Positions 9,602 to 42,927 of a DNA stretch of 45,160 nucleotides are shown piece after piece. Within the stretch, counting starts at the first letter, position 1. Each line of letters opens with the position of its first letter. The position numbers were made by a program, and so were the translations under genes. Below the pieces are notes generated by a model. That model was not told where the DNA came from and ran no database searches. It was given only the letters and a program-made list of their open reading frames with translations. Source of the DNA: a virus; the IMG/VR virus record IMGVR_UViG_3300013110_000446, positions 1 through 45,160 of that record; one strand, given 5' to 3'.

Positions 9602-9609
9602 TATTTATT
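9602..9609 (-). promoter_or_regulatory. T4-late-promoter-like box before VOC gene
   Basis: Minus-strand AATAAATA, 65 bases before the VOC start, at the 3' end of the amino-acid-binding protein gene. It is one mismatch from TATAAATA. The 9538-9604 leader contains no other clear signal. Confidence 0.3.
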
Positions 9610-25266: not shown

Positions 25267-26232
25267 TTATTTTAATTTGGCCTCAAATTCTCTTAAACGC
25301 CTATAAACACTCATTAATTCAATAATAGTAGGCCATGCTTTTAATAGATATTGCATCGATCCTTCTACTCTACCAAATGCTCTTATTATTTGTTGCATTA
25401 CACCTAGAGTCATTACTCCTGCAACTATTGCTGGTGCTAGGAATACATAAGCGGATAATACATTTGCTTGTAAGTAAGCCATTCGACCAATATTAAAATA
25501 TAGATAACGTATATAACTTAAAAAATGAATTTTACGAACATCATCAAAGAATTCTTCTATTTTCTTTGGTCTAACAGTTCCATCATCTTCTGCAATAACA
25601 AGTATTTTTCTATATGCCGCTTCTTTTGCTTGTATATCATATTCTATACCAACTAAACGCAATATCCACCCTAATCCAATTAAAAAGGCAGTACCACCTA
25701 ATGTCCAAAGTAACGCACCTGCAATCAATCCATATTCCCAATCACCAAAAAAGAATATTGGAATACCCAATGATAATCCAAATAATATAGGAACAAACTG
25801 AACTAAAACCATAACTGATTCGATTAAAGATGTTCCTAAACTTTCCATTATACGACTAAATTTAATTGTATCTTCTTGAACTCTTTGCGATGCACCTTCT
25901 ATTTTTCTGGCTTTGTCATACACACTATGATACCATTCAACCATTGCTGTACGCCATCTAAACAAATAGTGAGCTGTAAAAAAACTTATTACAACATAGA
26001 GTCCAACATATATTCCTGCTAGTGTAATAAATGACAATAAACTTGCAAAATATTCTTCTATTGTAATTGCATTTGGTGTAGCAAGTGCTTTTTGAATCAT
26101 ATCATAAAATTGACCAAACCATTCATTTATTTTTACATCAATCTTTACTTGAACCCAAAGTGATCCTAAAATAATTATTGAGCCAAGCCAAGACCATAAC
26201 AACCATTTTTTATTTAAAAAAAATCTAAACAT
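25267..26232 (-). CDS. SbmA/BacA-like peptide transporter
   Basis: A 321-residue inner-membrane protein with 6-7 hydrophobic helices. It matches SbmA/BacA in FFTAHYLFRWRTAMVEWYHS (84-103), the QRVQEDTIKFSRIMESL region (116-132) and the hallmark LVGIEYDIQAKEAAYRKILV (212-231), followed by the AEDDGTVRP loop. In bacteria these proteins import antimicrobial peptides, B12-like compounds and certain antibiotics by proton coupling. It is shorter than E. coli SbmA (about 400), losing mainly terminal segments. There is no ABC ATPase domain. It overlaps the upstream 85-residue gene by 8 bases. Confidence 0.87.
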   Translation of the reverse strand: MFRFFLNKKWLLWSWLGSIIILGSLWVQVKIDVKINEWFGQFYDMIQKALATPNAITIEEYFASLLSFITLAGIYVGLYVVISFFTAHYLFRWRTAMVEWYHSVYDKARKIEGASQRVQEDTIKFSRIMESLGTSLIESVMVLVQFVPILFGLSLGIPIFFFGDWEYGLIAGALLWTLGGTAFLIGLGWILRLVGIEYDIQAKEAAYRKILVIAEDDGTVRPKKIEEFFDDVRKIHFLSYIRYLYFNIGRMAYLQANVLSAYVFLAPAIVAGVMTLGVMQQIIRAFGRVEGSMQYLLKAWPTIIELMSVYRRLREFEAKLK

Positions 26233-26482: not shown

Positions 26483-26628
26483 GTTCCTCTTGGTGGTTTA
26501 GGTCCTCCATTTTCTATCCATTCTATTAAACTATACACAATGGCTATTTCTAAAGAAGTCCACATTATATTACCACCTGCTAATCCGACAAAAAGTAGTA
26601 TACATATACCTATAACGTATTTAATCAT
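26479..26628 (-). CDS. small membrane protein (49 aa)
   Basis: ATG at 26626-26628, overlapping the SET gene by 8 bases. The product MIKYVIGICILLFVGLAGGN continues with a second, weaker hydrophobic stretch and ends NGGPKPPRGT. One or two membrane helices. It lies between the SET-domain gene and the transporter group. The function is unknown. Confidence 0.6.
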   Translation of the reverse strand: MIKYVIGICILLFVGLAGGNIMWTSLEIAIVYSLIEWIENGGPKPPRGT

Positions 26629-26926
26629 TTATTCTATATAGTGTGTACTTAACGGTAAGTTCTTCGTTATCTTTGATATCTTTAATAGCAACTAAATGAT
26701 AATGATTAGTAACCAAATCTTTCCATTTGATTATATTAGGTTCTTCTGAATGATTAATAAATCCGCCTAATGGAGTTCTAATCCAACCGTCTTCAAAATC
26801 TGCATTATATACATGTGATATGCCTAAATTTGTTCCTTTTGAAATAGAACAGGTAGTAAATAGTCCTAACCCTTCAATATTTGATTTTTTAATAGTTAGA
26901 CTATCTAGCAATGGTTTATACATCAT
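26621..26926 (-). CDS. SET-domain protein
   Basis: A compact 101-residue SET-domain protein. It has the GLGLF motif (19-23) after SNIE, ISKGTNLG (28-35), the hallmark GFINHSEEPN (55-64, SAM-site NHS) and EELTVKYTLY (88-97, catalytic Tyr region). Family members methylate lysine, on histones in eukaryotes and on other proteins in bacteria and viruses. There is no pre- or post-SET zinc region, as in viral and bacterial minimal SET proteins. It overlaps the SAM methyltransferase gene as ATGA. Confidence 0.85.
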   Translation of the reverse strand: MMYKPLLDSLTIKKSNIEGLGLFTTCSISKGTNLGISHVYNADFEDGWIRTPLGGFINHSEEPNIIKWKDLVTNHYHLVAIKDIKDNEELTVKYTLYRIND

Positions 26927-27627: not shown

Positions 27628-28420
27628 TCATAAACTCATCTAATATATCTTTTAAATAAACATCTAATAATATTTTCTGTCCTTTTTCGTTATGGTGATA
27701 ATTATCCATTACTGTTATATCATCAAGTTCATAATTACGAGTGATATATTTACTAAATGATTGGTCTTTATAACATTTAAAGGCAGATAACCTTTTTAGT
27801 TTTTCTAATGATAAACAGGTATCTGCTATACCTCCTTCGTTTTCTAGCCAACCATAAGGAAATATTAAAAATTTTGAATTTAAAGAATCTATGTAACTTA
27901 AAATATGATCAATTTCTTTAACTGCAAAGTTTGATCTGGCATAATTTACTACACCAAATAACGGATCTCGTTTTGTTTTATCGTCTTCTTTGATCAAATT
28001 AAATCTTGTTTTAAGTTGCCATAAATTTATAAAATCTGGTAAATGTCCTTGACCCGAGTTTGACAAAATATCGTAATAGAAAAAATTCTCTTTGCTTTCT
28101 CGAATACCAAAAGTATATTCTTTATATAATACTTGTCTTGGTTCGCTTGATGATAATGATATTATAATTTTATCAAAAAAATCTAATCCGTATTTGCTCT
28201 GTATTTCATCAATAAAAAATCTAGTTCCGTTTAAACCATCACCACCATGACAAAAAACATGTGTCTCAACATTATATTTTTTATGTAATTCGTATGGCCA
28301 TCCTTTAAAATGATCTATATTATAATCGTCTACAAATGTATCTATTGCTATTTGTTTTTTAGCAGGAATAGGATTATATTCGCCGGCTACAAAACTGCAA
28401 CCTATTATTGCTATTCTCAT
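27620..28420 (-). CDS. SGNH/GDSL-like hydrolase
   Basis: A 266-residue protein with block I GCSFVAGE (7-14, candidate Ser9), a glycine-rich block (CHGGDGLNGTRF, 57-68), a mid-chain IIISLSSSEPRQ strand, and block V MDNYHHNEKGQ (238-248). Asp239 and His242 are spaced as the catalytic DxxH. It is better conserved than the copy at 8215-8871. It may remove acyl groups from a glycan or other ester. Overlaps PurN by 4 bases. Confidence 0.72.
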   Translation of the reverse strand: MRIAIIGCSFVAGEYNPIPAKKQIAIDTFVDDYNIDHFKGWPYELHKKYNVETHVFCHGGDGLNGTRFFIDEIQSKYGLDFFDKIIISLSSSEPRQVLYKEYTFGIRESKENFFYYDILSNSGQGHLPDFINLWQLKTRFNLIKEDDKTKRDPLFGVVNYARSNFAVKEIDHILSYIDSLNSKFLIFPYGWLENEGGIADTCLSLEKLKRLSAFKCYKDQSFSKYITRNYELDDITVMDNYHHNEKGQKILLDVYLKDILDEFMNE

Positions 28421-28983
28421 TTTATAAGTTGTTTAATTACATACGGATACATAAAATGTTCGACATAAGTGTGTATCATTTTTTTTACTTCATCTAATGG
28501 CATATCTTGTAATTGCATTGCTCGTTGCTCAATTATTGCTCCGCCATCTACTTCTGATGTTACCCAATGTACAGTAGCACCAAATACTGTACAACCATAA
28601 TTGTATGCGTCTTCGATTGCATTTGTTGATCCTTTAAATGCGGGAAGCAAAGACGGGTGTATGTTAATTATTTTACCTGCCCATTTATCACAAAACCAAT
28701 GGGATAAAATTCGCATCCAGCCAGCAAGTACAATTAAATCAGGCTTAAACTTATCTGGTCCGGTACCCCCAAGTGCAAAGTCTATCTTTTTATCGTACTC
28801 TTCTCGTGTTTCCCCTTTATAATGTTTAATTAAACAAGAACTTACCCCAGCATCCTTTGCTCGGTTAATTACTCCTGCATTAGGATTATTTGTAATTACT
28901 TGATCTACTTCTATATCATTATTAACAATGGCACTAAAATTTGAGCCTTCTCCAGAAGCCATTACTATTATTTTTTTACTCAT
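28417..28983 (-). CDS. purN: phosphoribosylglycinamide formyltransferase
   Basis: Transfers the formyl group of 10-formyl-THF to GAR. The 188-residue protein has ASGEGSNF (9-16, substrate loop), LAGWMRIL (86-93), the catalytic NIHPSLLPAFKG (107-118) with Asn107 and His109, and SEVDGG (143-148) with Asp146. These equal the E. coli triad Asn106, His108, Asp144. Length is near normal. It is the last gene of the main pur cluster in the transcription direction, 27 bases after purB, and overlaps the nested lipoprotein ORF by 8 bases. Confidence 0.94.
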   Translation of the reverse strand: MSKKIIVMASGEGSNFSAIVNNDIEVDQVITNNPNAGVINRAKDAGVSSCLIKHYKGETREEYDKKIDFALGGTGPDKFKPDLIVLAGWMRILSHWFCDKWAGKIINIHPSLLPAFKGSTNAIEDAYNYGCTVFGATVHWVTSEVDGGAIIEQRAMQLQDMPLDEVKKMIHTYVEHFMYPYVIKQLIK

Positions 28984-29080
28984 AACTTTCGTATAATTCT
29001 TCTACTTGATCAGGCAAATCCCCGCAACTCGTAAGAAGTGCAAGGAGTACTAAAAACTTTATGAAATATGTAATCCACAT
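28976..29080 (-). CDS. small lipoprotein nested in purB 3' end
   Basis: A 34-residue frame from ATG 29078-29080 to TAA 28976-28978. It overlaps the end of purB out of frame by 71 bases and overlaps the purN start by 8 bases (ATGAGTAA). The product MWITYFIKFLVLLALLTSCG plus an acidic tail (DLPDQVEELYESYE) is a textbook lipoprotein signal with lipobox LTSC. The mature lipid-anchored part is only 16 residues. The ribosome site is weak. It recalls Rz1-like nested lipoproteins, but purB is not an Rz gene. Confidence 0.5.
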   Translation of the reverse strand: MWITYFIKFLVLLALLTSCGDLPDQVEELYESYE

Positions 29081-30335
29081 TCTTTGTATAATATCCTACA
29101 TTAAAAATATCGTTTACTTCGTCCATAGATAAAACGTTATTTGCTATTAAATTATCTTTAAATGCGCCATCACCATGGGCGGCAGTTTGTACTTCTTTAT
29201 ACGCTTGTTCTCTTGTTAAGCCCTTATTATTAATTAAAAAGAGAAGAACTTGTTGAGAATAAACTAAACCGCCAGTAATATTCAGATTTTCTTGCATTCG
29301 CTTTGTATTTACTTCCATATTTATAACAACTTTTGTAAGCCGTGTTAATGCAAATGATACATAAGAAAATGTATCAGGTAAAGTAATACGTTCGACACTT
29401 GAATGGCTAATATCTCTTTCGTGCCATAATGCTATATTATCTAATGATGGTGCGACTGCACTTTTTATAAGTCTTGCAAGTCCTGTTAAGTTTTCTGTTA
29501 ATATAGGATTCTTTTTGTGTGGCATTGCACTAGAACCTTTTTGTCCTTTAGTAAATTGTTCTATTACTTCGCCTACTTCAGTACGTTGTAAATGTCTTAT
29601 TTCAACTGCTAAGTTTTCTATACAGCCACCTATAATTCCTAAGTAACTCATTAATAACGCAAAACGATCTCGCGGAACAACTTGCGTACTAACATCTTCA
29701 GCTAACATGCCAAGTTCGTCTGCTAAGTATTCTTCTATTTTTGGGTCAATAACAGAATAAGTTCCTACTGCTCCACTACATTTTACTCTACAAATATCAT
29801 GTTCTGCCTGCTCCAATAACTTTAAGCATCTTTGAAATGCTCTGTAATGCCCTAATAATTTTAATCCAAACGTTGTTGGTTCTGCGTGTATACCATGCGA
29901 TCTACCTACACATACTGTATTTTTATGATCTTCTGCTCGTTGTTCTAATACACTTACAATGCTTTTTAAAGCATCTTCTATAACAATTAATGATTGTTTT
30001 ATTTGCAAGGCATTGCAAGTGTCTAATAAATCTTGACTTGTCATGCCCATGTGTATATACTTTGCATTAGGACCTATCATATTAGAACAATGGGTTAAAA
30101 ACGCTAATACATCATGTTTAGTTGTCTTTTCTATTTCATTTATTTTTTCAACAAAATTTCCACTTTCAACACAAAGCCATCTGCATTTGCGTATATCGTT
30201 TACTGCTTCTTTAGGAATGTTTCCATATTTTGCTTGTGCTTCACAAACAATTTCCTCAATATCAAACCAATGTTGAAATCTACTTTCGTCTGACCAAATA
30301 TTTTCTATATCAGGGCATGTATATCTTTTATGCAT
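29010..30335 (-). CDS. purB: adenylosuccinate lyase
   Basis: Acts twice in purine synthesis, on SAICAR (to AICAR) and adenylosuccinate (to AMP). The 441-residue fumarase-fold protein has MGMTSQDLLDT (96-106), GRSHGIHAEPT (144-154, catalytic His) and the signature GSSAMPHKKNP (267-277, catalytic Ser loop). Length is normal. Overlaps purQ by 8 bases. The C-terminus ends in an unusual short tail (STPCTSYELRGFA) coinciding with the nested lipoprotein frame. Confidence 0.95.
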   Translation of the reverse strand: MHKRYTCPDIENIWSDESRFQHWFDIEEIVCEAQAKYGNIPKEAVNDIRKCRWLCVESGNFVEKINEIEKTTKHDVLAFLTHCSNMIGPNAKYIHMGMTSQDLLDTCNALQIKQSLIVIEDALKSIVSVLEQRAEDHKNTVCVGRSHGIHAEPTTFGLKLLGHYRAFQRCLKLLEQAEHDICRVKCSGAVGTYSVIDPKIEEYLADELGMLAEDVSTQVVPRDRFALLMSYLGIIGGCIENLAVEIRHLQRTEVGEVIEQFTKGQKGSSAMPHKKNPILTENLTGLARLIKSAVAPSLDNIALWHERDISHSSVERITLPDTFSYVSFALTRLTKVVINMEVNTKRMQENLNITGGLVYSQQVLLFLINNKGLTREQAYKEVQTAAHGDGAFKDNLIANNVLSMDEVNDIFNVGYYTKNVDYIFHKVFSTPCTSYELRGFA

Positions 30336-30939
30336 TAAAGTCTTCTAGTATTTTGAATCCGTCTTGTGAGCAATGATAAGTTTCAAATGCTCGTTCCGGA
30401 TGTGGCATCATACCTAATACATTATTATTACGTATTCCACAAATGCCCATTGTGGAACCATTTGGATTGTTTTTACGCAAATAATATGAATATGCTACTT
30501 TTTGTTCTTCTACTAACTTTGCAGGGTTAGGGTGATAGTAATTACCTTCTGCATGAGCAATAGGTATTCTACGTTGATAGTGTACAGGCCAAGTAATTAT
30601 ATCCATTGGCTTACATATAAATTTTTCTGTACTGTTTATTCGTAACGTTCCTGGTAACAAACCTGCTTCACATAATATTTGAAATCCGTTGCAAATGCCT
30701 AGTATTTTTCTATCTGTTTTTTTAAGTTCTTTTATAACAGGACTAAGATTTGCTATTGCACCTGCACGTAAATAATCACCATAACTAAAGCCTCCTGGTA
30801 TTACATACATATCAACTTTTGGTAATGTTGTTTCTTTGTGCCAGACACGTATAGGTTTAATTCCTGTATGTGCATACAAGAATCTTTCCATTTCATTATC
30901 GCAGTTACTACCTGGAAATATTATAATCGCTGTTTTCAT
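30328..30939 (-). CDS. purQ: FGAM synthase glutaminase subunit
   Basis: A class I glutamine amidotransferase that feeds ammonia to PurL. The 203-residue protein has FPGSNCDNE (8-16), [13 protein letters not shown] (49-61), the nucleophile in GICNGFQ (81-87, Cys83) and MMPHPER (177-183, His180 and Glu182). It is slightly short of the usual 225. It overlaps the purL stop by 32 bases. With PurL and PurS it forms the small-type FGAM synthase complex. Confidence 0.94.
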
Positions 30940-32479
30940 AATTTTCTATTAATCCTACTCCACCTATTACTGGTGTTGGCATAATGCCTTTACCTAAAGT
31001 TTCGTTATAAAAACTTACATTACCACTAACAACCGGAAATTCTAATTCTTTACATATTTCTGCCATGCCTAAACATACTTCTTTAAAGTCATGCATAACA
31101 TTTGGATTTTCCGGATTACCAAAATTTAAACAATTTGTTATACCTAACGGTTTTGCATTTACAGATAATAACTTATTATAACAATCATATATAATATATC
31201 TAATCCCACTTCTAGGATTATAATGGCAAAATGGGGCACTACTCATAGTTGTCATTGCTATTGCTTTTTTACTATTTGGTATCCTAACAATAGCAGGATC
31301 TGCTTGTGGTCCTTGTATTGTATTCCCTATTACTTGCGAATCATATTGCTCCCATACCCAATTCATATCAAAATCTGTTACTATAGGTATATCTATAAAT
31401 TCTGATTTATAAGGCTCTACTGGTCGTTGTAATTCAGGTGCATCTAATGCTTCTAGTGGTACATCACATACTACTTTATCTTTAACACGAACAGTATAAT
31501 TATTTGTATCTGTTAGTGTTCCTATTTCGACATAATCTAAATCCCATTTATTAAATATACTTTCTACTTCTGCATCAGGATTTAAAACAAATAACATTCG
31601 TTCTTGGCTTTCGCTTAAAAGTATCTCCCAAGGTTCCATTTTTTCTTCTCTTAAAGGAATTTTTGATATATCAATATCAATACCATAATTTCCTTTAAGT
31701 GCTACTTCCGAAGTTGAAGAAAGTATACCTGCCGCACCCATATCCTGTGCCGCAATTACTGTGCCTGTTTCAAATAATTCTAATGATGCTTCTAGTAATA
31801 GTTTTTCTTGAAATGGATCGCCTACTTGTACTGTAGGGCGTTTAACCTCACATTCAGTAAATTCCTCGCTTGCCATAATAGCACCACCTATACCATCACG
31901 CCCTGTTTTAGCACCTACATAAACAACAATGCCTTTTTTATTTGGAATACTTGTAAATATTTCTTTATTAGTATAACCTACTGTCATAGCATTTACAAGA
32001 GGATTTTCAGCATAACAATCAAAAAAATGGCATTTGCTACTAACAGTAGGAACCCCGACACAATTCCCATAATCAGCAATCCCTTTAACCACTCCATCAA
32101 TAACTCTCCTATCGTCTGTTGAACCAAAATGTAACGAATTTAAATTTGCAATAGGTCGAGCCCCCATTGTAAAAACATCACGCATGATGCCGCCTACTCC
32201 TGTTGCGGCTCCTTGATAAGGTTCTATATAACTAGGATGATTATGACTCTCTATTTTAAAAACTAGTTTATCACCGTCACCTATATTGACTACACCTGCA
32301 TTTTCACCAGGGCCAGATATGACTTGCTTGCCTTCAGTGTATAATTGTTTTAGCCAAAATTTAGAACTTTTATAAGAGCAATGTTCACTCCACATTGCAT
32401 CAAATACATGAGTTTCGGTTACGTTAGGTGCCCGACCTAATCTTTCGTCTATTAATTTTATTTCGTCATTCGTTAACAT
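30908..32479 (-). CDS. purL: FGAM synthase synthetase subunit, C-terminally short
   Basis: Makes FGAM from FGAR, ATP and ammonia. The N-terminus has [10 protein letters not shown] (30-39) and KIESHNHPS (75-83), then [12 protein letters not shown] (90-101) and later [14 protein letters not shown] and SGNVSFYNE. It ends at 523 residues, soon after [13 protein letters not shown], where normal small PurL (about 720-740) continues with a last ATP-fold domain of about 150-200 residues. The last codons run into the purQ start (32-base overlap). So this copy is truncated, or the last domain was dispensable. Confidence 0.92.
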
Positions 32480-33122
32480 GTTTTTCCCAATTTACATAAC
32501 TTAATTGTCTATCATTACCTAATTCTTTAGCAAATGTATTAAACGCCAAAGTGTATCTAATATCATTTTGCTGATTAATATTAACAGAATGCATTATATC
32601 TGATGGAAACATAATTAAGTCTCCATTGGTCATTGGTGCATCTACATATTCTGCATTCATACTATTATGGGTAGACTGTTGTAATTGAATCATAGGTAGA
32701 TGCCTATTATAAAATTGCGTAGGAGGCATTGAGCTGGTTACATTTAAATAAAATATTCCACTAATAATACTATTTTGATGATGGTGCGTCGGATGGCCTG
32801 CCCCGGACTCATTTTTATTAACCCAAGAATTTGTAATAATCAATTCTGTTTTGGTAGAAATAACATCTATTGCATAATTTTTTATTTTTTCTTCAATCCA
32901 ATTTTTAATTTTAGATAATTTTTTATGCCGTAATATGTACGAATCTTCTGTTTTACAATTTCCGTTATATGATCCTTCTTGTCTAAATGGTAACTTTTGT
33001 ATGTATTCAAATTCTTCATCATATGTATCAGGATATTTACTTACAAACATTGTAGTTGGAAAAACATGCAATATTGTATCATCGCCCTTAACAAATTTTG
33101 TTACATGATCTAATACATTCAT
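32466..33122 (-). CDS. putative 2OG-Fe(II) oxygenase, marine-phage type
   Basis: A 218-residue protein with the loop [20 protein letters not shown] (108-127), a segment [15 protein letters not shown] (166-180, distal His178) and Arg189 in RYTLAFN. It belongs to the same family as the product of 15818-16483. It lies inside the purine operon between purS and purL, overlapping both (4 and 14 bases), so the phage co-expresses it with purine enzymes. Substrate unknown. Confidence 0.8.
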
Positions 33123-33337
33123 TCTTCCTCTATTTCATAATCATACAATAAGGTATTAACAAGAACTGTTTCGCATAATTCTTTAATTTTATGATGAGGG
33201 GCATTAAAATAAAATACTTGTCCTACTTTCATATTTTCTACTTGCCATCCATTAGCATTTACGTTTAATGATATATTATCGCCTTGTATATCTTTAATAC
33301 CTTTTCTTAATTTTGTTGTGATTTTGTATTTTTTCAT
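33119..33337 (-). CDS. purS: FGAM synthase PurS subunit
   Basis: A 72-residue protein with the PurS pattern: YKITTKLRKGIKDIQGDNIS (4-23), VGQVFYFNA (38-46) and [18 protein letters not shown] (55-72), matching the family's LxxGVxDPQG, VGKxxxL and CxxLLxNxVxExYxIE. It dimerises and bridges PurL and PurQ. Its presence confirms the small-type three-subunit FGAM synthase. It overlaps the oxygenase gene by 4 bases. Confidence 0.88.
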   Translation of the reverse strand: MKKYKITTKLRKGIKDIQGDNISLNVNANGWQVENMKVGQVFYFNAPHHKIKELCETVLVNTLLYDYEIEEE

Positions 33338-33338
33338 A

Positions 33339-33935
33339 TTAATAAATTTGTTCTATCTTATCGCATAATCCTAATTTTTTTGCTTCTTTAGCACCAAGCC
33401 AAACATCATGTGCAGGAAGTAAGTATTTTCTAATATCTGATTCTTTAAGACCAGTACATTTTTTATAATGATTGATCATACGCTCTGTTGTTAGTTCTAA
33501 CTCTTTAACTCTAGCAAATAGTTCGTGTTCTTTTCCTATACTGCCCCATGAATATTGGTGCGATAAAATACTTGTGTTTGGTGTTAGAACTCGTCTACCT
33601 TTTGCACCAGTTATAAACATAAGTAATCCACACGAGGCAATCATGCCTAGTCCAACTGTTTTGATAGGAATTTTAGATCCTTTCATTACATCTACTAATG
33701 CAAAACATGCATTAAGATCTCCGCCTCTAGAACATATACCTAATGTCAATTCTTTTTGCTTTTTTGGTTTATAATTTTCTGCAAGTATCCAGTCAATTAA
33801 CGGACTCATTGATTCTACTGTAACATCACCCATAAAAACCACTACACCATTCATTAATAGTTCCATTTTAGGAACCATTGCTTCAGGACTTGACGGTCCT
33901 TGGGGAACTCCTTGATCTTCGTCTTCGTTTCTCAT
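33339..33935 (-). CDS. clpP: ClpP-type serine protease
   Basis: A 198-residue protease with the ClpP triad. Ser101 lies in GMIASCGLLM (97-106, equivalent to the GxxASMG site), His126 in SILSHQYS (122-129) and Asp177 in LPAHDVWLGAKEAKKLGLCD (173-192). The first 25 residues are a Pro/Glu/Asp-rich extension where ClpP has its axial loop or propeptide. With the ClpA-like ATPase at 200-2398 it could form a phage ClpAP protease, or dock onto host ClpX/ClpA. Its position inside the purine operon is odd. Confidence 0.9.
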   Translation of the reverse strand: MRNEDEDQGVPQGPSSPEAMVPKMELLMNGVVVFMGDVTVESMSPLIDWILAENYKPKKQKELTLGICSRGGDLNACFALVDVMKGSKIPIKTVGLGMIASCGLLMFITGAKGRRVLTPNTSILSHQYSWGSIGKEHELFARVKELELTTERMINHYKKCTGLKESDIRKYLLPAHDVWLGAKEAKKLGLCDKIEQIY

Positions 33936-33944
33936 TTTATTCCT

Positions 33945-34988
33945 TTAAAATATTTTATTTTGTTGATTGTTTACCATTACAAAGGTTGTACATTTTGGAA
34001 TATCTTTTATTCTTCTTGCACCAATCATTGTACATGCACTTCTAAGTCCGCCTAAAATATTTTTTACTGTATCTCTAACAGGCCCTCTTGAATCCATTGT
34101 AACTCGTTTACCTTCTGTACTAGTATAGCCATCTTTTCGAGATCCATGCACTTCTTTTGCACGATCAGAACTCATGCCGTAAAATTCATATTTTCCATCT
34201 TGTTTTGGTAAATCGCATTCATCATGAAATGCCAGCATACCTCCTAACATAACAAAGTCTGCTCCCGCTCCAAATGCTTTTGTTATATCACCCGGAACAG
34301 TACATCCACCATCTGCAATTATATATCCCCCCAAACCATGTGCGGCATCTGCACATTCCATTACTCCACTTATTTGTGGCATACCTACTCCGGTTTGCTC
34401 TCGTGTTGTACATACACTACCTGGACCTATACCACATTTAACCACATCTGCACCCGATATACATAATTGCTCGGTCATTTCTCCAGTAATAACATTACCT
34501 GCAATTATAATTTTATCAGGAAAATCATCTCGTACTTTAACAACAAAATCTGCAAAATTTTGCTGATAACCATTTGCTACATCTATACAAATAAATTTAA
34601 CTTCTGGCCATTCTGTTAATACTGCTTTTGCAGTAGCATAATCTGTTGCGTTGTCGTCCCAAATAGCATTGGTACCTGTACTAACTACTACATTATTTAA
34701 ACGTAATCCTTTACTTGCCGCTTCTTTCCAGTCATCAAATGAATAATGCTTTCTAATTGTAGTAAGCATATTAAACTCTTGCAGTACCATTGCCATCGAA
34801 AATGTACCTACCCCATCCATGTTTGATGACATAATAGGAGTACCTGCCCATTTTTGGGAAGATTCGTCCCAATGCCTAAACGTAAACTCTCTTTCTAAGT
34901 TTATACTTCGTCTACTAGATATTGTAGAACGTTTAGGTTGTAATAATACATCTGAATAATCTAATTTTATTTCAGTGTCTACTCTCAT
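33945..34988 (-). CDS. guaC: GMP reductase
   Basis: Reduces GMP to IMP with NADPH. At 347 residues it equals E. coli GuaC in length. It begins with LDYSDVLLQPKRSTISSR (9-26), then MSSNMDGVGTFSMA (53-66), CIDVANGY (134-141), GIGPGSVCTTREQTGVGMPQ (187-206, nucleophile Cys193), DGGCTVPGDITKAFGAGADF and, near the end, GGLRSACTMIGA. IMP dehydrogenases carry a CBS domain that is absent here. Its presence beside guaA but without guaB suggests purine interconversion rather than net GMP production. Confidence 0.93.
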   Translation of the reverse strand: MRVDTEIKLDYSDVLLQPKRSTISSRRSINLEREFTFRHWDESSQKWAGTPIMSSNMDGVGTFSMAMVLQEFNMLTTIRKHYSFDDWKEAASKGLRLNNVVVSTGTNAIWDDNATDYATAKAVLTEWPEVKFICIDVANGYQQNFADFVVKVRDDFPDKIIIAGNVITGEMTEQLCISGADVVKCGIGPGSVCTTREQTGVGMPQISGVMECADAAHGLGGYIIADGGCTVPGDITKAFGAGADFVMLGGMLAFHDECDLPKQDGKYEFYGMSSDRAKEVHGSRKDGYTSTEGKRVTMDSRGPVRDTVKNILGGLRSACTMIGARRIKDIPKCTTFVMVNNQQNKIF

Positions 34989-35407
34989 TATGCACCATAT
35001 GGCTGTTCAAAGTTTATTATGTCTAGGATACGTTTTGCGTATAATGCGGCATTAATTGCACCATGCTTGCCAACTGACATACATGCAACTGGTACACCTT
35101 TTGGCATTTGTACTATACTTAGTAAACTATCAATACCCATTAAATCACTTTTCATTGGTACACCTATTACTGGTAAATTTGTTTGGGATGCAACCACACC
35201 TGGCAATGCGGCAGACATTCCTGCGGCCGCAATAATAATTTTATATCCGGATGCTTCCCATTTTTTAATATACTCGGTTACTTTTTCTGGATTTCTATGT
35301 GCAGATGCAGTAACTATTTCATTGCCGATATTTAATTCGTTTAATTTATCAACGCAATTATTCATCGTCTCTAGGTCGCTGTCGCTTCCCACTATTATTC
35401 CTATCAT
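34988..35407 (-). CDS. purE: N5-CAIR mutase / AIR carboxylase catalytic subunit
   Basis: Makes CAIR. Class I PurE motifs: GSDSD (7-11), ASAHRNP (34-40) and AAGMSAALPGVVA (61-73), where typical enzymes have AGGAAHLPG. The C-terminal block has IDSLLSIVQMPKGVPV. At 139 residues it is slightly short of the usual 160. Class I enzymes need PurK to make N5-CAIR, but no purK is in the window, so host PurK or non-enzymatic bicarbonate would serve. Overlaps guaC by one base. Confidence 0.9.
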   Translation of the reverse strand: MIGIIVGSDSDLETMNNCVDKLNELNIGNEIVTASAHRNPEKVTEYIKKWEASGYKIIIAAAGMSAALPGVVASQTNLPVIGVPMKSDLMGIDSLLSIVQMPKGVPVACMSVGKHGAINAALYAKRILDIINFEQPYGA

Positions 35408-35546
35408 TTTTCTCCTTAGTTTGAAATTCTTCTAATATTTCAAGTAATCGTTTATATTGTTTAGATGTTAATTTTCTTAACTGTCCAATACTTGCTCCAT
35501 CAAACCCCATTTTATAAAGTTCATCATGTCCAATACCTGCTATCAA
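35358..35546 (-). CDS. small hypothetical protein (62 aa)
   Basis: I place the start at TTG 35544-35546, overlapping the HAD stop as TTGA and preceded by GAGG. An ATG 30 bases upstream (35576) would overlap HAD by 34 bases. The product includes GIGHDELYKMGFDGASIGQL, a helical LTSKQYKRLLEILEEF segment and a basic/acidic tail. It may be a small regulatory or DNA-associated helix protein. It overlaps the purE start by 50 bases. Confidence 0.6.
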   Translation of the reverse strand: MIAGIGHDELYKMGFDGASIGQLRKLTSKQYKRLLEILEEFQTKEKNDRNNSGKRQRPRDDE

Positions 35547-35902
35547 GGTAAGCCTCGTTCTTTTGCTTGAAACCATGATTCTGAATTATATGATTTATCA
35601 CAAATGTACATATCAAAATGTGGTTTATTTCCTACTTGTACATCATGGTATTTACATCCCCATTCTAGTAATTGACTTTTGGTTAATTCTGTATGGTCTA
35701 ATCCAGAATGGATACCACGGGCAGTCCAATAAACAATTTTATGACCTTCATCGTATAATTCGTTTATATGCTTAATTCTTTCTGGTTTCGGAGTTGCTTT
35801 TGTATAATCCATAGGTTGGTCATCAAAATTTGGCAACTCTGGATTATCACAAATAGTACCATCTACGTCAACGTAGATAATTTTATGTTTTTTTAATTTC
35901 AT
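35543..35902 (-). CDS. HAD-superfamily phosphatase
   Basis: A 119-residue compact HAD protein with VDVDGTI (11-17) holding the nucleophile and acid Asp residues. It has YWTARG (59-64, threonine motif) and a motif-III/IV segment KPHFDMYICDKS (about 93-104). It resembles the phosphatase domain of polynucleotide kinase or phage HAD proteins of similar size. Candidate substrates are nucleotides or 3'-phosphates. Start is the ATG 35900-35902 after AAAGGAAAA, not the upstream TTG. Confidence 0.78.
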   Translation of the reverse strand: MKLKKHKIIYVDVDGTICDNPELPNFDDQPMDYTKATPKPERIKHINELYDEGHKIVYWTARGIHSGLDHTELTKSQLLEWGCKYHDVQVGNKPHFDMYICDKSYNSESWFQAKERGLP

Positions 35903-35909
35903 TTTTCCT

Positions 35910-36518
35910 TTAATATTCTGCAACAAAAATGTGATACTTTATAATGGTATATATAAATCCTATAAAAAAGATCCCCATACCAATTTCATGTAATTTTTTA
36001 CTATTACTGAATATCATTGGAGTCATAATGCAAAGCATAAGAACTCTACCTATTACTTTCAATGACATTAATTCTCCTTTAAAGAATACAAAGAGATTTG
36101 CAAGTAGACAACATTGTAATGCTACTGCCAATCCTAAAATAACCTTATGGTTTTCGTAATAGTATTCACATAAATCAACCGATTTATCTTTATATGTCTC
36201 CGGTTGTGGAGCAACTACTTCAGTTACCATAAAAAATATTAATGGTACTGAAAGATATAAAAGAAACGTAAATAAATTCCAATCTTCATTTGAAAAATAT
36301 GCTAAGTCTCTTAGTGGATACGAAGTCCACCAAAATAATATAATAGTAAAAAAAGTTATAAAACTAAAAGCCGTATGTGGCCAATAGAAATAAACATCAT
36401 CGTCTGGATTATCATTGTAATTTTTTGCTAATAATGAACTGTAATTTATCATTAACCTAACCATAGACATGGCTAAAACTACAAAGGGTATCATAGATAA
36501 ATGTGAAAATGCGACCAT
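35910..36518 (-). CDS. polytopic membrane protein (202 aa)
   Basis: A 202-residue protein with about five membrane helices, for example LSMIPFVVLAMSMVRL (7-22), AFSFITFFTIILFWW (50-64), FTFLLYLSVPLIFFMV (about 84-99), ILGLAVALQCCLLANLFVFF (about 127-146) and a last pair ending IYTIIKYHIF. It has no known transporter motif. It directly follows purM (TGA then ATG). A purine or metabolite transporter is tempting but unsupported. Unknown family. Confidence 0.72.
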   Translation of the reverse strand: MVAFSHLSMIPFVVLAMSMVRLMINYSSLLAKNYNDNPDDDVYFYWPHTAFSFITFFTIILFWWTSYPLRDLAYFSNEDWNLFTFLLYLSVPLIFFMVTEVVAPQPETYKDKSVDLCEYYYENHKVILGLAVALQCCLLANLFVFFKGELMSLKVIGRVLMLCIMTPMIFSNSKKLHEIGMGIFFIGFIYTIIKYHIFVAEY

Positions 36519-37457
36519 TCATTTTTCCTCCAACTCGCCTAAAATAAGATGTTCAGTTAATACATTACTTAAATACTGCCATTCACTATCTTCTGGAACA
36601 ATTATAACCATTCCTACACCGCAATTAAATGTTTTCATCATTTGTTTTTTAGTTAAGTTTGCCTCTGCTTGTATCCATTGAAACAAACTTTCGTGTCTAA
36701 AAAATCTAGTCTCATTTGATTTATTGCCACTTTTTACAGAATGATATAATCTATAATTACATACTAAGTTCTTTGGTAATATTCTTTTTGTATTAGTATG
36801 ACCACCTCCTGTTATATGTGCTATTCCTTTTATTTCTATACCTGCTTCTTTAAGTGCATCCAATTCTTTTTTATATATTTTTGTTGGCTCAAGCAACGAA
36901 TACATAAATTCTTTTTCGTCTACGTTATTCGGAGTTTTATGTGCATATTCTCGTATCATTGTGTAACCATTAGAGTGAAATCCTGTAGAAGGCAAACCTA
37001 TTACTTTATCTCCTGGTTGCATATTATTTTTAGGCAATTGATCCATTGATATACCTACACCAAATCCGCAAACATCAAATGTACCTTGTTCAATTATGCC
37101 AGGCAACTCAGCAGTCTCGCCTCCTACTAATTCTATTCCTACTTGAGAACATCCAAAATATATTCCTTCTAATACTTCTTTAAAATCTTCCTCGTTAACA
37201 TTTGCTGAACAAAAATAATCCAAAAAGAACAACGGTTCACATCCATTACATAATAAATCATTAATAACCATTGCTACACAATCTACTCCTATTGATTGCA
37301 ACGGCCTACCATATTTTTCCTTTGCTTGTTGTGCTAATAGTATCTTTGTTCCAACACCGTCACAACTTGAAATAAGATTGCCATGCCTAGCCGCAAAGCC
37401 TCCTATCTGTTCTGAATATTGTGAAATACTTTTAACTAGTTTATCATTTTTATTCAT
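36519..37457 (-). CDS. purM: AIR synthetase
   Basis: Closes FGAM to AIR using ATP. The 312-residue protein has ISSCDGVGTK (29-38, ATP-site loop), DCVAMVINDLLCNGCEPLFF (59-78), VGGETAELPG (111-120) and a Gly-rich HITGGGHTN segment. It lacks about 15-30 N-terminal residues compared with typical PurM (about 345), but the N-terminus KLVKSISQYSEQIGGFAARH is conserved-looking. It ends one codon before the membrane protein gene. Confidence 0.94.
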   Translation of the reverse strand: MNKNDKLVKSISQYSEQIGGFAARHGNLISSCDGVGTKILLAQQAKEKYGRPLQSIGVDCVAMVINDLLCNGCEPLFFLDYFCSANVNEEDFKEVLEGIYFGCSQVGIELVGGETAELPGIIEQGTFDVCGFGVGISMDQLPKNNMQPGDKVIGLPSTGFHSNGYTMIREYAHKTPNNVDEKEFMYSLLEPTKIYKKELDALKEAGIEIKGIAHITGGGHTNTKRILPKNLVCNYRLYHSVKSGNKSNETRFFRHESLFQWIQAEANLTKKQMMKTFNCGVGMVIIVPEDSEWQYLSNVLTEHLILGELEEK

Positions 37458-37464
37458 TATTACC

Positions 37465-39012
37465 TTATTCCCATTCTATTGTTCCTGGTGGCTTAGAAGT
37501 TATGTCGTAAACTACTCTATTTACTCCTGATACATTATTAATAATTTCAGTAGAACATTTACTAAGCACTTCATGTGGTAAATTAAACCAATCAGCAGTC
37601 ATACCATCTTCACTTGAGACTGCTCGTAATGCAATAAGATTTTCGTATGTTCTATCATCGCCCATTACACCTACTGTTTTAATAGGTATCAAAACTGCAA
37701 ATGCTTGCCAAATACCTTCGATATCACCTAACGTCTTTAAAAATACACTATCTGCCTCACGTAATATTCGTAATCTTTCATGTGTTACTTCGCCCATTAT
37801 TCGTACTGCTAGTCCTGGTCCGGGAAATGGCTGGCGGGTTAAAACAGTATCTGGCAACCCTAATTCTTTGCCCAATAATCTTACTTCATCTTTAAATAAA
37901 TTCCTAAGTGGTTCAATTAAAGTAAATTCCATATTGTCGGGTAATCCACCTACATTATGGTGCGACTTAATTGTTGCCGCTATATCTTTTCCTGATTCAA
38001 TAACATCAGGATACAATGTACCTTGTGCTAAAAACTTTGCATCCTTTGTAACATCTTCAAAGCATCTAATAAATTCTCTTCCAATTACTTTTCGTTTAAC
38101 TTCCGGATCAGTAATGTTTTCTAATACTTTCCAAAACCTTTGTGTAAAATCATACTTTGTAATGTTTAATCCTAGCTCTTGCATGGATTTCATTATTTCG
38201 TTTGCTTCGTTTTTACGAAGTAACCCTGTATCAATAAAAACACATTTTGACTGTTTACCTATTGCTTTGTGTAATAATTTTCCTACTACTGCGGAATCAA
38301 CTCCTCCACTAATTGCAGTTATAACTTCTCCATCACCTACTTGTTCTCTTATAGATTTAATAGCATCTTCAATAATATATTTTGAAATCCAATCTTTATC
38401 ACATTGTGCTACTTTAAATAAAAAGTTTCTAAATACATCTCTTCCAATAAGTGAATGTACTACTTCCGGATGAAATTGTACTCCGTAAATAGGTTTTTCT
38501 TTATGCTTAACCGCCGCTATAACATTGTTAGAAGATCTTGCTATAATATCAAATACTTTTGGTAATGTTTGTATTTCATCTGCATGACTCATCCATACTT
38601 GGGCTCCTTCTATCCAATCTTTGTCACATTCTGCTAATAATGGATCTGGCTTTTCTACGTATATGTTTGCAAGTCCGTATTCGCCTGTGCCACGAATAAT
38701 TTTTCCGCCTTCTTTGTGTACTATTTCTTGTAAGCCATAACATATACCTAAAATAGGAATACCTAAGTTTAAAATATCAGGATCTAACTTAGGTGCTTCG
38801 GTTTCGTATACACCTGATCTGCTTCCTGATAATATTATTGCTTTAGCATTTTTTAATTCTTCTGCTTTAACAGACGGAGCATATATTTTGGAATAAACAT
38901 TTTGTTCTCTAACTCTCCTGGCAATGAGTTGTGTATATTGGGCACCAAAATCTATTACTGCTACAGGATTATGTGTGTACTTTGCTCCAAAATCTATTAC
39001 CGCGACTGTCAT
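37465..39012 (-). CDS. guaA: GMP synthase (glutamine-hydrolysing)
   Basis: Converts XMP to GMP. N-terminal glutaminase: GICYGLQ (89-95, Cys91), His181 and Glu183 in QFHPEV. Then the ATP-PPase domain with SGGVDS (235-240), and the dimer domain to 515. The N-terminus is odd: VAVIDFGAKYT (3-13) and VAVIDFGAQYT (17-27) are tandem copies of the usual starting strand. The second copy is the one continuous with the family, so the first 14 codons are extra. Overlaps the purD stop by 4 bases. Confidence 0.94.
   Translation of the reverse strand: MTVAVIDFGAKYTHNPVAVIDFGAQYTQLIARRVREQNVYSKIYAPSVKAEELKNAKAIILSGSRSGVYETEAPKLDPDILNLGIPILGICYGLQEIVHKEGGKIIRGTGEYGLANIYVEKPDPLLAECDKDWIEGAQVWMSHADEIQTLPKVFDIIARSSNNVIAAVKHKEKPIYGVQFHPEVVHSLIGRDVFRNFLFKVAQCDKDWISKYIIEDAIKSIREQVGDGEVITAISGGVDSAVVGKLLHKAIGKQSKCVFIDTGLLRKNEANEIMKSMQELGLNITKYDFTQRFWKVLENITDPEVKRKVIGREFIRCFEDVTKDAKFLAQGTLYPDVIESGKDIAATIKSHHNVGGLPDNMEFTLIEPLRNLFKDEVRLLGKELGLPDTVLTRQPFPGPGLAVRIMGEVTHERLRILREADSVFLKTLGDIEGIWQAFAVLIPIKTVGVMGDDRTYENLIALRAVSSEDGMTADWFNLPHEVLSKCSTEIINNVSGVNRVVYDITSKPPGTIEWE
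38932..39006 (-). repeat. tandem duplication at guaA 5' end
   Basis: Two 33-base copies (38974-39006 and 38932-38964) with a 42-base period encode the doubled VAVIDFGAxYT. They differ at about 7 positions, mostly synonymous, so the duplication is not very recent. Confidence 0.85.
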
Positions 39013-40178
39013 AATGCTTTATATCCAATATCCTTTCGATAAAAACTATCTTCCCAATGTATTTTTTCACATATTTGATATGCTTTATTTCGTGCTTCTT
39101 GTAATGTTTCTCCTCTAGCAGTTATATTTAAAACTCTACCACCTTTTGTAATATATCTATCATCTATTTTTTGAGTACCTGCATGAAACACTTGTACATC
39201 AGGATCATCTATTTTATCTAAACCTTTTATTTCAAATCCCTTACCATATTTTTCTGGATAACCTCCTGAACACATACAAACAGTTATCGCAGATCCATTG
39301 TAAAAATTAGGTGCCGGTAACTCTTTTAATGTACCATTAACACATGCTTCTAAATATGGAGACAAATCACTCTCCATTAACATCATTAATACTTGACATT
39401 CAGGATCACCAAAACGTACATTGTATTCTATTACATATGGATCTCCATTGCAAATCATTAAACCAATATATAATACACCTCTGTAAGGGATACCTTCTTC
39501 TCGCATTCCCCTAAGTGTTGGTTCGATTATTTCTCTTCTAATTCTTGTGTCTAGTTCATTTGTTATTAATGGTGCTGGTGCGTATGCACCCATTCCTCCT
39601 GTGTTAGGTCCAGTATCTCTTTCACCTACACGTTTATGATCTTGACAATAAGGAAGTACTTTATAATCTTTTCCATCTGTTAATACAAAACAACTTGCTT
39701 CGTCGCCTTGTATAAATTCTTCTATTAATATTTTATTTGATTTAGACTCAAATTTATTATCAATAAATGTTTGTTGAACATTAATAGCATCCTCTAATGC
39801 ATCACAAACTGATACACCTTTTCCTCCGCATAATCCGTCCTCTTTAATAACAATAGGAAATTTTTCATTAGGACGCATTATTGCTTCTTCTATTGTTGAT
39901 CGATTATATGTTTCCCATCTTGCAGTAGGAATATCATTACGAAGCATAAATTGTTTCGCCCATAATTTACTTGTTTCTAATCGACCCGCAAGTTTACTTG
40001 GAGCAAATACTTTTTTAAGCATACCTTCATAATGCTCAGTAAGTCCGTCTGCTATAGGTTGTTCTGGTCCTATAATAACAAATTCCGAATTTTCTTTAAT
40101 CGGAATGCTTTCTTTTTCCAATTTCCAACGTAAGGAATCTTCTCTTCCTCCGTCGCCTATCATAATAGTCGAAATCAT
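39009..40178 (-). CDS. purD: glycinamide ribonucleotide synthetase
   Basis: Joins glycine to phosphoribosylamine with ATP (ATP-grasp). It starts IMIGDGGREDSLRW, where GDGGRED (8-14) is the family's GxGGREH motif with Asp for His. It has FVIIGPEQPIADGL (33-46), then the ATP-grasp core with GGKGVSV and, later, DTGPNTGGMGAYAPAP, GVLYIGLM and EYNVRFGDPECQ. At 389 residues it is about 30 shorter than usual. Overlaps purF by 4 bases. Confidence 0.95.
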   Translation of the reverse strand: MISTIMIGDGGREDSLRWKLEKESIPIKENSEFVIIGPEQPIADGLTEHYEGMLKKVFAPSKLAGRLETSKLWAKQFMLRNDIPTARWETYNRSTIEEAIMRPNEKFPIVIKEDGLCGGKGVSVCDALEDAINVQQTFIDNKFESKSNKILIEEFIQGDEASCFVLTDGKDYKVLPYCQDHKRVGERDTGPNTGGMGAYAPAPLITNELDTRIRREIIEPTLRGMREEGIPYRGVLYIGLMICNGDPYVIEYNVRFGDPECQVLMMLMESDLSPYLEACVNGTLKELPAPNFYNGSAITVCMCSGGYPEKYGKGFEIKGLDKIDDPDVQVFHAGTQKIDDRYITKGGRVLNITARGETLQEARNKAYQICEKIHWEDSFYRKDIGYKAL

Positions 40179-41683
40179 GCTACCTGTTGTTTATATCTGA
40201 GTGTGCCTTCTTGTGTAGGATATTTAGATGTTAAACATGCCATACAAAGTTCACTACTATTTTTATTTAACGCTTTTACCATACCCTCTAACGACAAATA
40301 TTGTAAACTATCTGCACCAAAATCGCTTGCTTTAGGTTTATTAGTACTTGTGTATAATTCTTTTATAGTTGGAAAATCTATTCCATAAAAACAAGGCGAA
40401 GTAATAGGAGGACATCCAATTCGTAAATGTACTTCTTTTGCTCCGCTCCATTCTTTTAAATTTGTTACTAATGCTCGCATTGTTGTACCACGTACAATAG
40501 AATCATCTATAAGTATAATTTTTTTACCCCGTAATACCTCACGCAAATGTGTAAATTTTAATTGTATATTGTATGTTCTATTTGTATTATCTATAAATGT
40601 TCTTCCTATAGAATGATTTTTAAGTAAGCCTTGTACAAAAGGTATATGGGTTTCTTGTGCATATTTTGCTCCTGCAACATACGAAGTTTCAGGTACAGGT
40701 ACTACAATATAATCACCGTTAAATTTAACTGTTTCTTCTATTGCTAATTGTTTTCCTATATTTTCTCGTACATGATATACAGATTCGCCATCCATTACAG
40801 ATGCAAGATGCCCAAAATAAATCCATTCAAAAAAACAATAACTAGTATTTTTTTTAGAATGTGTTTCTATTAATTTACTTGGACCAGAATAATATAAACT
40901 ATTACTTGGATATTGTAAATCCTTATCTATATAACTTTTTACAGTAAAATTATCGCCATCAGCAATAATCATTTCACCGGGTTTCAAATCTGTTGCTTCT
41001 ATTTGTAAATTAGAGAGAACTACGCTTTCTGATGTAAAAACTAATATGCCATCATCAGTAACACCATAACACATAGGTTTTAGCCCTAGTGGATCTCTGA
41101 CAGCAACCATTTTCCCGTCAGCATTTACAAAGGCAATGTTCCATGATCCGTCAAAATCTTTTAATAACGTTTTAAATATTTCAACAAAGTTTAATTCTTC
41201 TTGAGGCTTATGTGATTGGACTTCACGACTAAGAAAATGCATTATGACTTCTGTATCAGAATCATAAGTCATATTGTAACCTACTTTTTCTAAGCCACTT
41301 TTTAGTTTATCATAATTTGCTAGGTTGCCATTAAAGGCTAAACTAAACCATTTTGATTTTCTACCATGTGGACGTTCAAATGGTTGTGCTAATTGATCTC
41401 CATTATCACCACTTGTTGCATAACGAGTGTGACCTATTGCGGCATGACCACTATAATCTTCTAATAATTTTTTACTTTTATATTGATGGTTGATTTGAAA
41501 TACTTCGTGTACTTTACCATTGTCTTTATGTGTTTGGAGTATTCTCTTTCTATTTTGATTGTAAGAAGTAAGACCGGCACTAAGTTGACCCCGGTGTTGT
41601 AAATCTAATAATCCTCTAACAATGAGGGGGTAAACGTTTTTGGTTTTATCCTTTAACGAATACGCCCCAATAACTCCACACAT
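40175..41683 (-). CDS. purF: amidophosphoribosyltransferase
   Basis: First committed step of purine synthesis: PRPP plus glutamine to phosphoribosylamine. The N-terminal Ntn glutaminase nucleophile is Cys2 in MCGVIGAYS. It has RGLLDLQHRGQLSAGL (23-38), HTRYATSG (85-92), FNGNLAN (117-123) and the PRPP loop ILIDDSIVRGTTMRAL (390-405). A Cys pair CMAC (480-483) at the C-terminus is the family's Fe-S ligand region. At 502 residues it is near full length, with no propeptide. It ends exactly adjacent to aceA. Confidence 0.95.
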   Translation of the reverse strand: MCGVIGAYSLKDKTKNVYPLIVRGLLDLQHRGQLSAGLTSYNQNRKRILQTHKDNGKVHEVFQINHQYKSKKLLEDYSGHAAIGHTRYATSGDNGDQLAQPFERPHGRKSKWFSLAFNGNLANYDKLKSGLEKVGYNMTYDSDTEVIMHFLSREVQSHKPQEELNFVEIFKTLLKDFDGSWNIAFVNADGKMVAVRDPLGLKPMCYGVTDDGILVFTSESVVLSNLQIEATDLKPGEMIIADGDNFTVKSYIDKDLQYPSNSLYYSGPSKLIETHSKKNTSYCFFEWIYFGHLASVMDGESVYHVRENIGKQLAIEETVKFNGDYIVVPVPETSYVAGAKYAQETHIPFVQGLLKNHSIGRTFIDNTNRTYNIQLKFTHLREVLRGKKIILIDDSIVRGTTMRALVTNLKEWSGAKEVHLRIGCPPITSPCFYGIDFPTIKELYTSTNKPKASDFGADSLQYLSLEGMVKALNKNSSELCMACLTSKYPTQEGTLRYKQQVA

Positions 41684-42916
41684 TTAAAATTGCTCGTCTT
41701 CTGTTGACCCTTTAATTGCACTTAATGTATTACTACCAGTACATACTTGACTTATTTCGTCAAAGTAACCTGCACCTACTTCACGTTGGTGTTTTACTGC
41801 TGTAAATCCTAATTCTTGTGCTTTAAATTCTTTTTGTTGTAAATCTACAAATCCTGTCATACCAGTATTTTTATAATTTAAAGATAAATCAAACATACTA
41901 TAATTTAAACTATGAAAACCTGCGAGTGTAATAAACTGATATGTTACTCCTAGTTCGCCTAGTTCATCTTTGAAATTGCGTATTTCAGTATCGCTTAATT
42001 TTGACTTCCAATTAAATGATGGTGAACAATTATATGCAAACATTTTATTTGGAAACTCCTTACGAATTTCTGCACAAAATTCCCTGCATTCGCCTATGTC
42101 GGGTAAAGATGTTTCCATCCAAAGCAAATCACAGTAAGGCGCATATGCAAGTCCTCTTGAAACCGCTTGTGCCATTCCTGCATTTGTTTTATAAAATCCT
42201 TCGGTTGTTCTTTCACCTGTAATAAACGTATGATCATATTCGTCAGCATCAGTTACTAACAATGCACCTGCTAATGAATCTGTTCTTGCAATTAAAACAG
42301 TATCAACGCCCATTATATCTGCGGCAAGTCTAGAAGCAATAAGTTTTGATACCATTTCTTTAGTAGGTACTAACACTTTACCACCCATGTGTCCGCATTT
42401 TTTAGCAGAAGATAATTGGTCTTCTAAATGCACACCGGCGGCACCGGCTTCAATCATGTCTTTCATTAATTCATGGGCATTAAGGACTCCTCCGAATCCT
42501 GATTCCATGTCTGCAACAATAGGAAGAAAATAATCTATATCTCCTTCACCTTCCATTGTTTGTATTTGATCTGCACGGATAAACGTATTATTAATTCGTT
42601 TTACTACGATTGGTACACTATTGGCCGCATATAATGATTGATCTGGATACATCTCCATACTATCATTTGCATCGCCTGCTACTTGCCAACCACTAAGATA
42701 TACCGAATCTAACCCAGCCTTTGCTTGTTGCATTGCTTGGTTACCTGTTAATGCACCTAAGGCACTAACGTAAGGTTGATTGTGTAATTTGTGCCATAAC
42801 TTTTTAGCACCATTTTGTGCTAATGTATATTCAACTTTAACTGACCCACTTAGTCGCTTTACGTCTGAGTCGGCATATGGTCGGATAATCCCGTCCCATC
42901 TATTTTCTTTGCTCAA
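41684..42916 (-). CDS. aceA: isocitrate lyase
   Basis: Cleaves isocitrate to glyoxylate and succinate. The 410-residue protein has [14 protein letters not shown] (71-84), [14 protein letters not shown] (130-143), [17 protein letters not shown] (164-180) with the catalytic Cys174 in KKCGH, then [23 protein letters not shown] and [11 protein letters not shown]. This separates it from methylisocitrate lyase. A glyoxylate-shunt enzyme between purC and purF is very unusual in a phage. Glyoxylate can be transaminated to glycine for PurD. Confidence 0.94.
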
Positions 42917-42927
42917 TTTTTATCTCC

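Follow-up and report, generated by a model that had tools for sequence, protein, structure and literature searches.

A virus-restricted ClpP with an intact catalytic triad probably does not serve as docking partner for the ClpA encoded in the same phage genome

Introduction

Jumbo phages encoding ClpA, ClpP, ClpS, and ClpX are already known (PMC6102473, PMC7824862). The combination of ClpA with ClpP was reported in 2018 for Atu_ph07, which also has ClpS, and ClpA is likewise known from Rak2-like jumbo phages (PMC6102473). An axial loop is one determinant of ClpX recognition, and the ClpX of C. trachomatis binds ClpP2 but not the loop-less ClpP1; C. trachomatis ClpP1 and P. aeruginosa ClpP2 are both second ClpPs that keep the protease fold and are not engaged by ClpX (PMC9823225). 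Mutants of B. subtilis ClpP at Y62 and F82 no longer have caseinolytic activity (PMC11005422), which links these pocket residues to unfoldase engagement. ClpR, a specialized ClpP paralogue of cyanobacteria and plastids, has lost catalysis, and the S14 head-maturation proteases (phrog_94) share the ClpP-like fold. In one marine viral genome survey, ClpP appears as a protease with Fe-S proteins as its substrates (PMC5332604).

Here we describe a ClpP and a ClpA of a marine phage, encoded on one stretch of 45,160 bases from an IMG/VR virus record (the window), which is very likely a piece of a larger phage genome. Like canonical S14 ClpPs (E. coli, S. aureus), the window ClpP has the Ser-His-Asp triad, the glycine-rich oxyanion segment, the handle region, and the fold, but it lacks the axial loop, the hydrophobic pocket, and Arg170 and falls in a separate clade. 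That clade differs from ClpR in its catalytic triad, which all 77 sequences retain, and from the S14 head-maturation proteases in its location away from head genes. C. trachomatis ClpP1 and P. aeruginosa ClpP2 are bacterial and share their cells with a ClpP that does dock, whereas members of the viral clade also occur without a phage-encoded partner and, unlike the two bacterial proteins, have replaced pocket side chains. The window ClpA is 44 to 47% identical to those of Atu_ph07 and Sinorhizobium phage Phosso; the ClpP of Atu_ph07 and the Rak2-like jumbo phages, in contrast to that of the window, is canonical and has the pocket, and Phosso has a divergent ClpP besides.

Results

Gene coordinates and assembly

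The window ClpP gene encodes 198 aa and the ClpA gene 732 aa. The first-pass annotation had located both proteins correctly and had named no strand, which is minus for both.

33339 to 33935, minus strand: divergent, virus-restricted ClpP with a peptidase S14 fold (PF00574, AlphaFold model, clade support 99/97)
200 to 2398, minus strand: ClpA, a double-AAA+ unfoldase of 732 aa (Pfam, PDB match, conserved catalytic residues)
2382 to 2900, minus strand: peptide deformylase, overlapping the ClpA start (PF01327, E 1.1e-38)

Both clp genes are real, with chance excluded, and the plus-strand frames at their positions contain many stops. The two genes recur at 100% identity, with about 31 kb between them, in another assembly (109,853 bp), and because it shows the same arrangement, an assembly chimera uniting ClpA with ClpP is ruled out. 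An in-frame stop lies 4 codons ahead of the ATG of the window ClpP, whose ribosome-binding site is plausible; therefore, no canonical N terminus has been missed upstream, and an overlooked start concealing an axial loop is likewise ruled out. The gene order peptide deformylase-ClpA is common to the window and Phosso. No match to a ClpS adaptor was found among the window ORFs scanned with Pfam, which were all but a few small ones.

Fold, catalytic site, and handle of the window ClpP

The window ClpP, which is ~29% identical to E. coli ClpP, matches PF00574 with an E value of 4.6e-28 and 98.8 bits against a curated cut-off of 20.2, placing it in the S14 family. Structures were modeled as monomers from 28 aligned sequences each for the window ClpP and for a canonical phage ClpP control. 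The AlphaFold monomer of the window ClpP has a core pLDDT of ~90, with low confidence at the N terminus and handle; its best PDB matches are ClpPs, and its core reaches a TM score of 0.79 against S. aureus ClpP, identifying a ClpP fold. The triad recognized in the first reading of the sequence, Ser101-His126-Asp177, is indeed intact and aligns with that of E. coli.

33633 to 33635, minus strand: codon of Ser101, the catalytic nucleophile (Ser in 77/77 divergent sequences)
33558 to 33560, minus strand: codon of catalytic His126 (His in 77/77)
33405 to 33407, minus strand: codon of catalytic Asp177 (Asp in 77/77)
33492 to 33560, minus strand: handle segment, residues 126 to 148 (HQYSWGSIGKEHELFARVKELEL), the presumed ring-ring interface (conservation)

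Pairwise dN/dS (NG86) of divergent ClpP is ~0.05 to 0.12 in five of six pairs; the sixth, a very close pair, gives ~0.5 on few changes. These ratios indicate that divergent ClpP is under purifying selection and, together with the invariant triad, rule out a ClpR-like or decaying gene.

Mean conservation of the handle is 0.74 in the divergent clade versus 0.64 in canonical ClpPs. Residue 131, a Gln in E. coli, is Lys in 57 of 59 divergent ClpPs, and Arg170 is present in none of 77 divergent sequences (His in the window ClpP) versus 29 of 34 canonical ones. A handle that is conserved yet distinct in its charges suggests that divergent ClpPs may have their own ring pairing; considered along with general knowledge of ClpP ring contacts, it would slightly favor self-pairing. 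Three canonical ClpPs (L172, L173, and L174) have a 10-residue handle insertion and IHR instead of IHQ.

Replacement of the unfoldase-docking surfaces

The ClpAP complex proposed in the first-pass annotation depended on a hydrophobic docking pocket on the phage ClpP. At the sequence level this pocket is absent, as is the axial loop; in the comparisons below and in the paragraph that follows, the 34 canonical sequences were picked partly by strong Pfam match, which biases them toward pocket retention.

33861 to 33935, minus strand: residues 1 to 25, a disordered tail replacing the canonical axial loop (AlphaFold model, alignment)
33738 to 33746, minus strand: Thr64-Leu65-Gly66, replacing pocket Tyr60 and Tyr62 (alignment)
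33678 to 33680, minus strand: Gly86, replacing pocket Phe82 (aromatic or Met in 0/77 divergent versus 33/34 canonical)
33582 to 33584, minus strand: Thr118, replacing pocket Leu114 (hydrophobic in 0/77 divergent versus 29/34 canonical)
33351 to 33353, minus strand: Glu195, replacing pocket Leu189 (hydrophobic in 14/77 divergent versus 34/34 canonical)

At the positions of E. coli Y62, F82, L114, and L189, which form part of the pocket for IGF/IGL, the window ClpP has G, G, T, and E. The alignment from E. coli Y60 to H122 is gapless, and the pocket residue assignments are therefore firm and independent of gap placement. Position 62 (G66 in the window) is aromatic or His in only 10 of 77 divergent sequences versus all 34 canonical ones, and position 114 is Thr in 59 of 59 aligned divergent ClpPs. 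In ten of the 77 divergent ClpPs, positions 62, 90, and 112 are still aromatic, and the predicted docking loss may therefore be incomplete in parts of the clade.

The N terminus departs from the canonical form in both alignment and model. Residues 1 to 20 of the window ClpP model have a pLDDT of ~40 and no hairpin, whereas the canonical phage ClpP control, modeled by the same method and at the same depth, has an ordered N-terminal hairpin (E7-12/E15-20) and a helix. An equivalent of E. coli R15, in the axial loop, is found in 0 of 77 divergent sequences versus 33 of 34 canonical ones. N-terminal tails are nonetheless retained across the divergent clade, where they are often Pro/Gln-rich and vary in sequence and length. 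Because the hydrophobic pocket of the apical face appears to be lost along with the axial loops of the N terminus, the window ClpP is probably not the direct docking partner of the window ClpA.

The window ClpA

The window ClpA matches E. coli ClpA (1ksf) over its length (E 5.4e-184) and contains the Pfam domains Clp_N, AAA, AAA_2, and D2-small. Its Walker A/B residues and Arg fingers belong to a set that is invariant across all 72 phage ClpA rows of the alignment. An IGF tripeptide had been noticed at the docking position, and the alignment with E. coli ClpA bears this out.

590 to 598, minus strand: IGF docking tripeptide, ClpA aa 601 to 603 (aligns with E. coli IGL617-619)

The tripeptide conforms to I/L/V-G-x in 73 of 73 rows (72 phage sequences plus E. 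coli ClpA) and is IGF in 66; the other forms are IGV, IGL, LGF, LGM, IGY, and VGF. Judged by these features, the window ClpA appears fully competent for docking on a normal ClpP.

In isolates with a non-IGF ClpA loop (RaK2, GAP32, 2.275.O, SCTP-2, and XaC1), the pocket of the canonical ClpP tends to depart as well. This joint deviation, a pattern noticed post hoc in a small sample, may point to co-evolution between canonical ClpP and phage ClpA. Among the individual sequences (L190, L191, L193, L194, and L199 and L203 and L205 to L208), the ClpA loops IGV, LGM, IGV, IGY, and VGF stand alongside an altered canonical ClpP pocket.

A virus-restricted ClpP clade

Our ClpP tree comprised 119 sequences, of which 77 are divergent, 34 are canonical, and 8 fall in neither group, several of these on very long branches. 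Divergent and canonical ClpPs lie on opposite sides of one branch, which has a support of 99/97 and is present in 100% of bootstrap trees. Three overlapping scans of IMG/VR returned 124, 458, and 154 candidate stretches for divergent ClpP, and an exact-motif scan of 84,980 bacterial and archaeal species matched only 6 metagenome-assembled contigs. No named viral ClpP subfamily was found in literature searches, and a triad-intact, virus-restricted ClpP clade that is predicted not to dock, often encoded beside a canonical ClpP, appears to be new within searchable papers.

Which ClpP accompanies ClpA

A canonical-type ClpP is encoded by all eight ClpA-bearing isolates (Phosso, Atu_ph07, RaK2, GAP32, PA5oct, Vibrio 2.275.O, SCTP-2, and XaC1), which we counted as complete, the 349 kb genome record of Vibrio 2.275.O being marked as partial. 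The first-pass annotation had called a matched unfoldase in the same genome less usual; these eight isolates, and the precedent of Atu_ph07 (PMC6102473), speak otherwise. Large contigs give a similar picture: among 13 chosen for canonical ClpP, 10 have a full-length ClpA and 1 has a piece of ClpA at the contig end.

The divergent clade and ClpA separate in both directions, a pattern that the first-pass annotation had named as counting against its pairing. Seven of the eight ClpA isolates lack the divergent clade, Phosso being the exception. Conversely, the complete cyanophage BUCT-ZZ01 (a Synechococcus phage, hereafter ZZ01) and the 174 kb contig G075 encode a divergent ClpP without a canonical ClpP, and in neither did we find ClpA, a Clp D2-small domain, or a Clp unfoldase domain. 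Divergent ClpP without an unfoldase is thus seen in one complete genome, one large contig, and fragments; most contigs are fragments, and absence there is therefore weak evidence.

Divergent ClpP and ClpA do occur together in the window lineage and several others (G046, G053, G056, G057, Phosso, G016, G017, G087, G088, G091, and G093). Canonical and divergent ClpPs share a genome or contig in Phosso, G016, G017, G077, G078, G079, G087, G088, G091, and G093, and in the related large phage contigs G091 and G093 (L498 and L499) the two genes are ~2.4 kb apart. A canonical ClpP was not found in the 109,853 bp contig of the window phage, nor was one present on contigs from this phage's samples among the matches listed in two IMG/VR scans.

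Genomic neighborhood

As first annotated, the window ClpP lies inside a purine cluster, with IMPDH/GMP reductase upstream and PurS downstream (Pfam). Purine genes are its neighbors in the window lineage; in other phages, divergent ClpP is found mostly among replication, late-transcription, or other genes, including sets with a SleB-type hydrolase, gp33, and gp32; with DNA polymerase and a UvsX-like recombinase; and with primase, ThyX, and a DnaB-like helicase. The purine-cluster position of ClpP thus looks lineage-specific, and a purine-linked function is weakened because the neighbors differ in other lineages. Divergent ClpP did not lie among portal or capsid genes in the contigs covered, the window phage's own head genes lying outside the fragment.

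The window also encodes a near-complete de novo purine pathway (6666 to 7610 and 28417 to 43770, minus strand), unusually full for a phage, with PurF, PurD, PurN, PurL, PurQ, PurS, PurM, PurE, PurC, PurB, PurH (AICARFT part), GuaA, and IMPDH/GMP reductase. Other genes encode an isocitrate lyase-family protein (41684 to 42916), SpeD (S-adenosylmethionine decarboxylase; 43978 to 44397), an RpiB-like isomerase (5968 to 6411), an SbmA/BacA-like domain (25267 to 26232; PF05992, E 2.9e-134), an extracellular solute-binding protein (9605 to 10804), and a 101-aa protein with a SET-domain match (26621 to 26926; PF00856). The stretch from 10804 to 11271 has a weak SoxA/TsdA cytochrome c match, under the curated cut-off.

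Discussion

We give about even chances to the reading that, as a whole, we prefer: the window ClpP would be a viral paralogue that does not dock and works independently of an unfoldase, and ClpA would drive a canonical ClpP instead. The divergent ClpP keeps its triad and the ring-ring handle and seems to have lost both surfaces that engage an unfoldase, the apical pocket and the axial loops. It would most likely assemble with its own copies and cleave peptides or already unfolded protein. ClpA, a complete motor with an IGF loop, would most likely find its canonical partner either in the unsequenced part of the phage genome, since related jumbo phages encode one, or in the host.

The main rival, which we judge possible but on balance unlikely, is a mixed barrel in which divergent ClpP forms a ring or part-ring with a canonical ClpP of phage or host, ClpA docks on the canonical face only, with the phage subunit modifying cleavage specificity, gating, or access by host unfoldases. 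Such a barrel can be likened to C. trachomatis ClpP1/P2 or actinobacterial ClpP1P2, and a non-docking ClpP paralogue has bacterial precedent (PMC9823225). The strong conservation of the handle and the 10 genomes and contigs shared by canonical and divergent ClpPs, closely spaced in two of them, are consistent with it. The handle charges, however, are unlike those of canonical ClpPs (Lys131, no Arg170) and may disfavor cross-pairing, and in ZZ01, where the phage encodes no canonical ClpP, the barrel partner could only be host ClpP. We consider it rather improbable that the virus-only ClpP inserts into or competes with canonical barrels of host or phage and removes their docking faces, which would rewire or blunt the ATP-dependent proteolysis of the infected host but keep peptidase activity on.

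The first-pass annotation had proposed that the phage builds its own ClpAP, with ClpA docking on the window ClpP, to remodel host protein turnover or recycle amino acids. The components stand: one genome contains the two genes in intact form, as does the second assembly, ClpA has its IGF loop and all catalytic residues and looks competent to dock, ClpP has its triad, and ClpA co-occurs with divergent ClpP in 11 named genomes and contigs. It is their matched pairing that is not supported, with the IGF pocket and axial loop missing clade-wide, ClpA tracking canonical ClpP instead, and divergent ClpP found without any Clp unfoldase; a phage ClpAP of this composition is accordingly very doubtful. 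An unfoldase might alternatively dock in a nonstandard way, through the divergent ClpP's own apical surface and N-terminal tail, as the retained Pro/Gln-rich tails and the conserved residues at apical positions (such as Thr at 114) could suggest, but the tails differ in sequence and length and no unfoldase co-occurs consistently, which makes such docking highly improbable.

That the window ClpP is an S14-type head-maturation (prohead) protease can be set aside as scarcely credible, despite a best PHROG match to phrog_94 (head maturation protease, E 1.1e-21) and the likewise ClpP-like nature of such proteases, because a T4-type S77 prohead protease is present along with divergent ClpP in six relatives (Phosso, ZZ01, G016, G017, G058, and G064), and the neighbors of divergent ClpP are DNA polymerase, UvsX-like, primase, gp33, and gp32 genes rather than head genes, while the single S14 head protease tested sits on a very long branch.

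Marine phage clpP has so far been read as ordinary ClpP, and that reading would need revision if many of these genes fall in a clade unable to engage ClpA or ClpX. The divergent clade is common in IMG/VR, and genomes that encode both a canonical ClpP and a putatively dock-less one beside ClpA may offer a natural system in which to test unfoldase-free ClpP.
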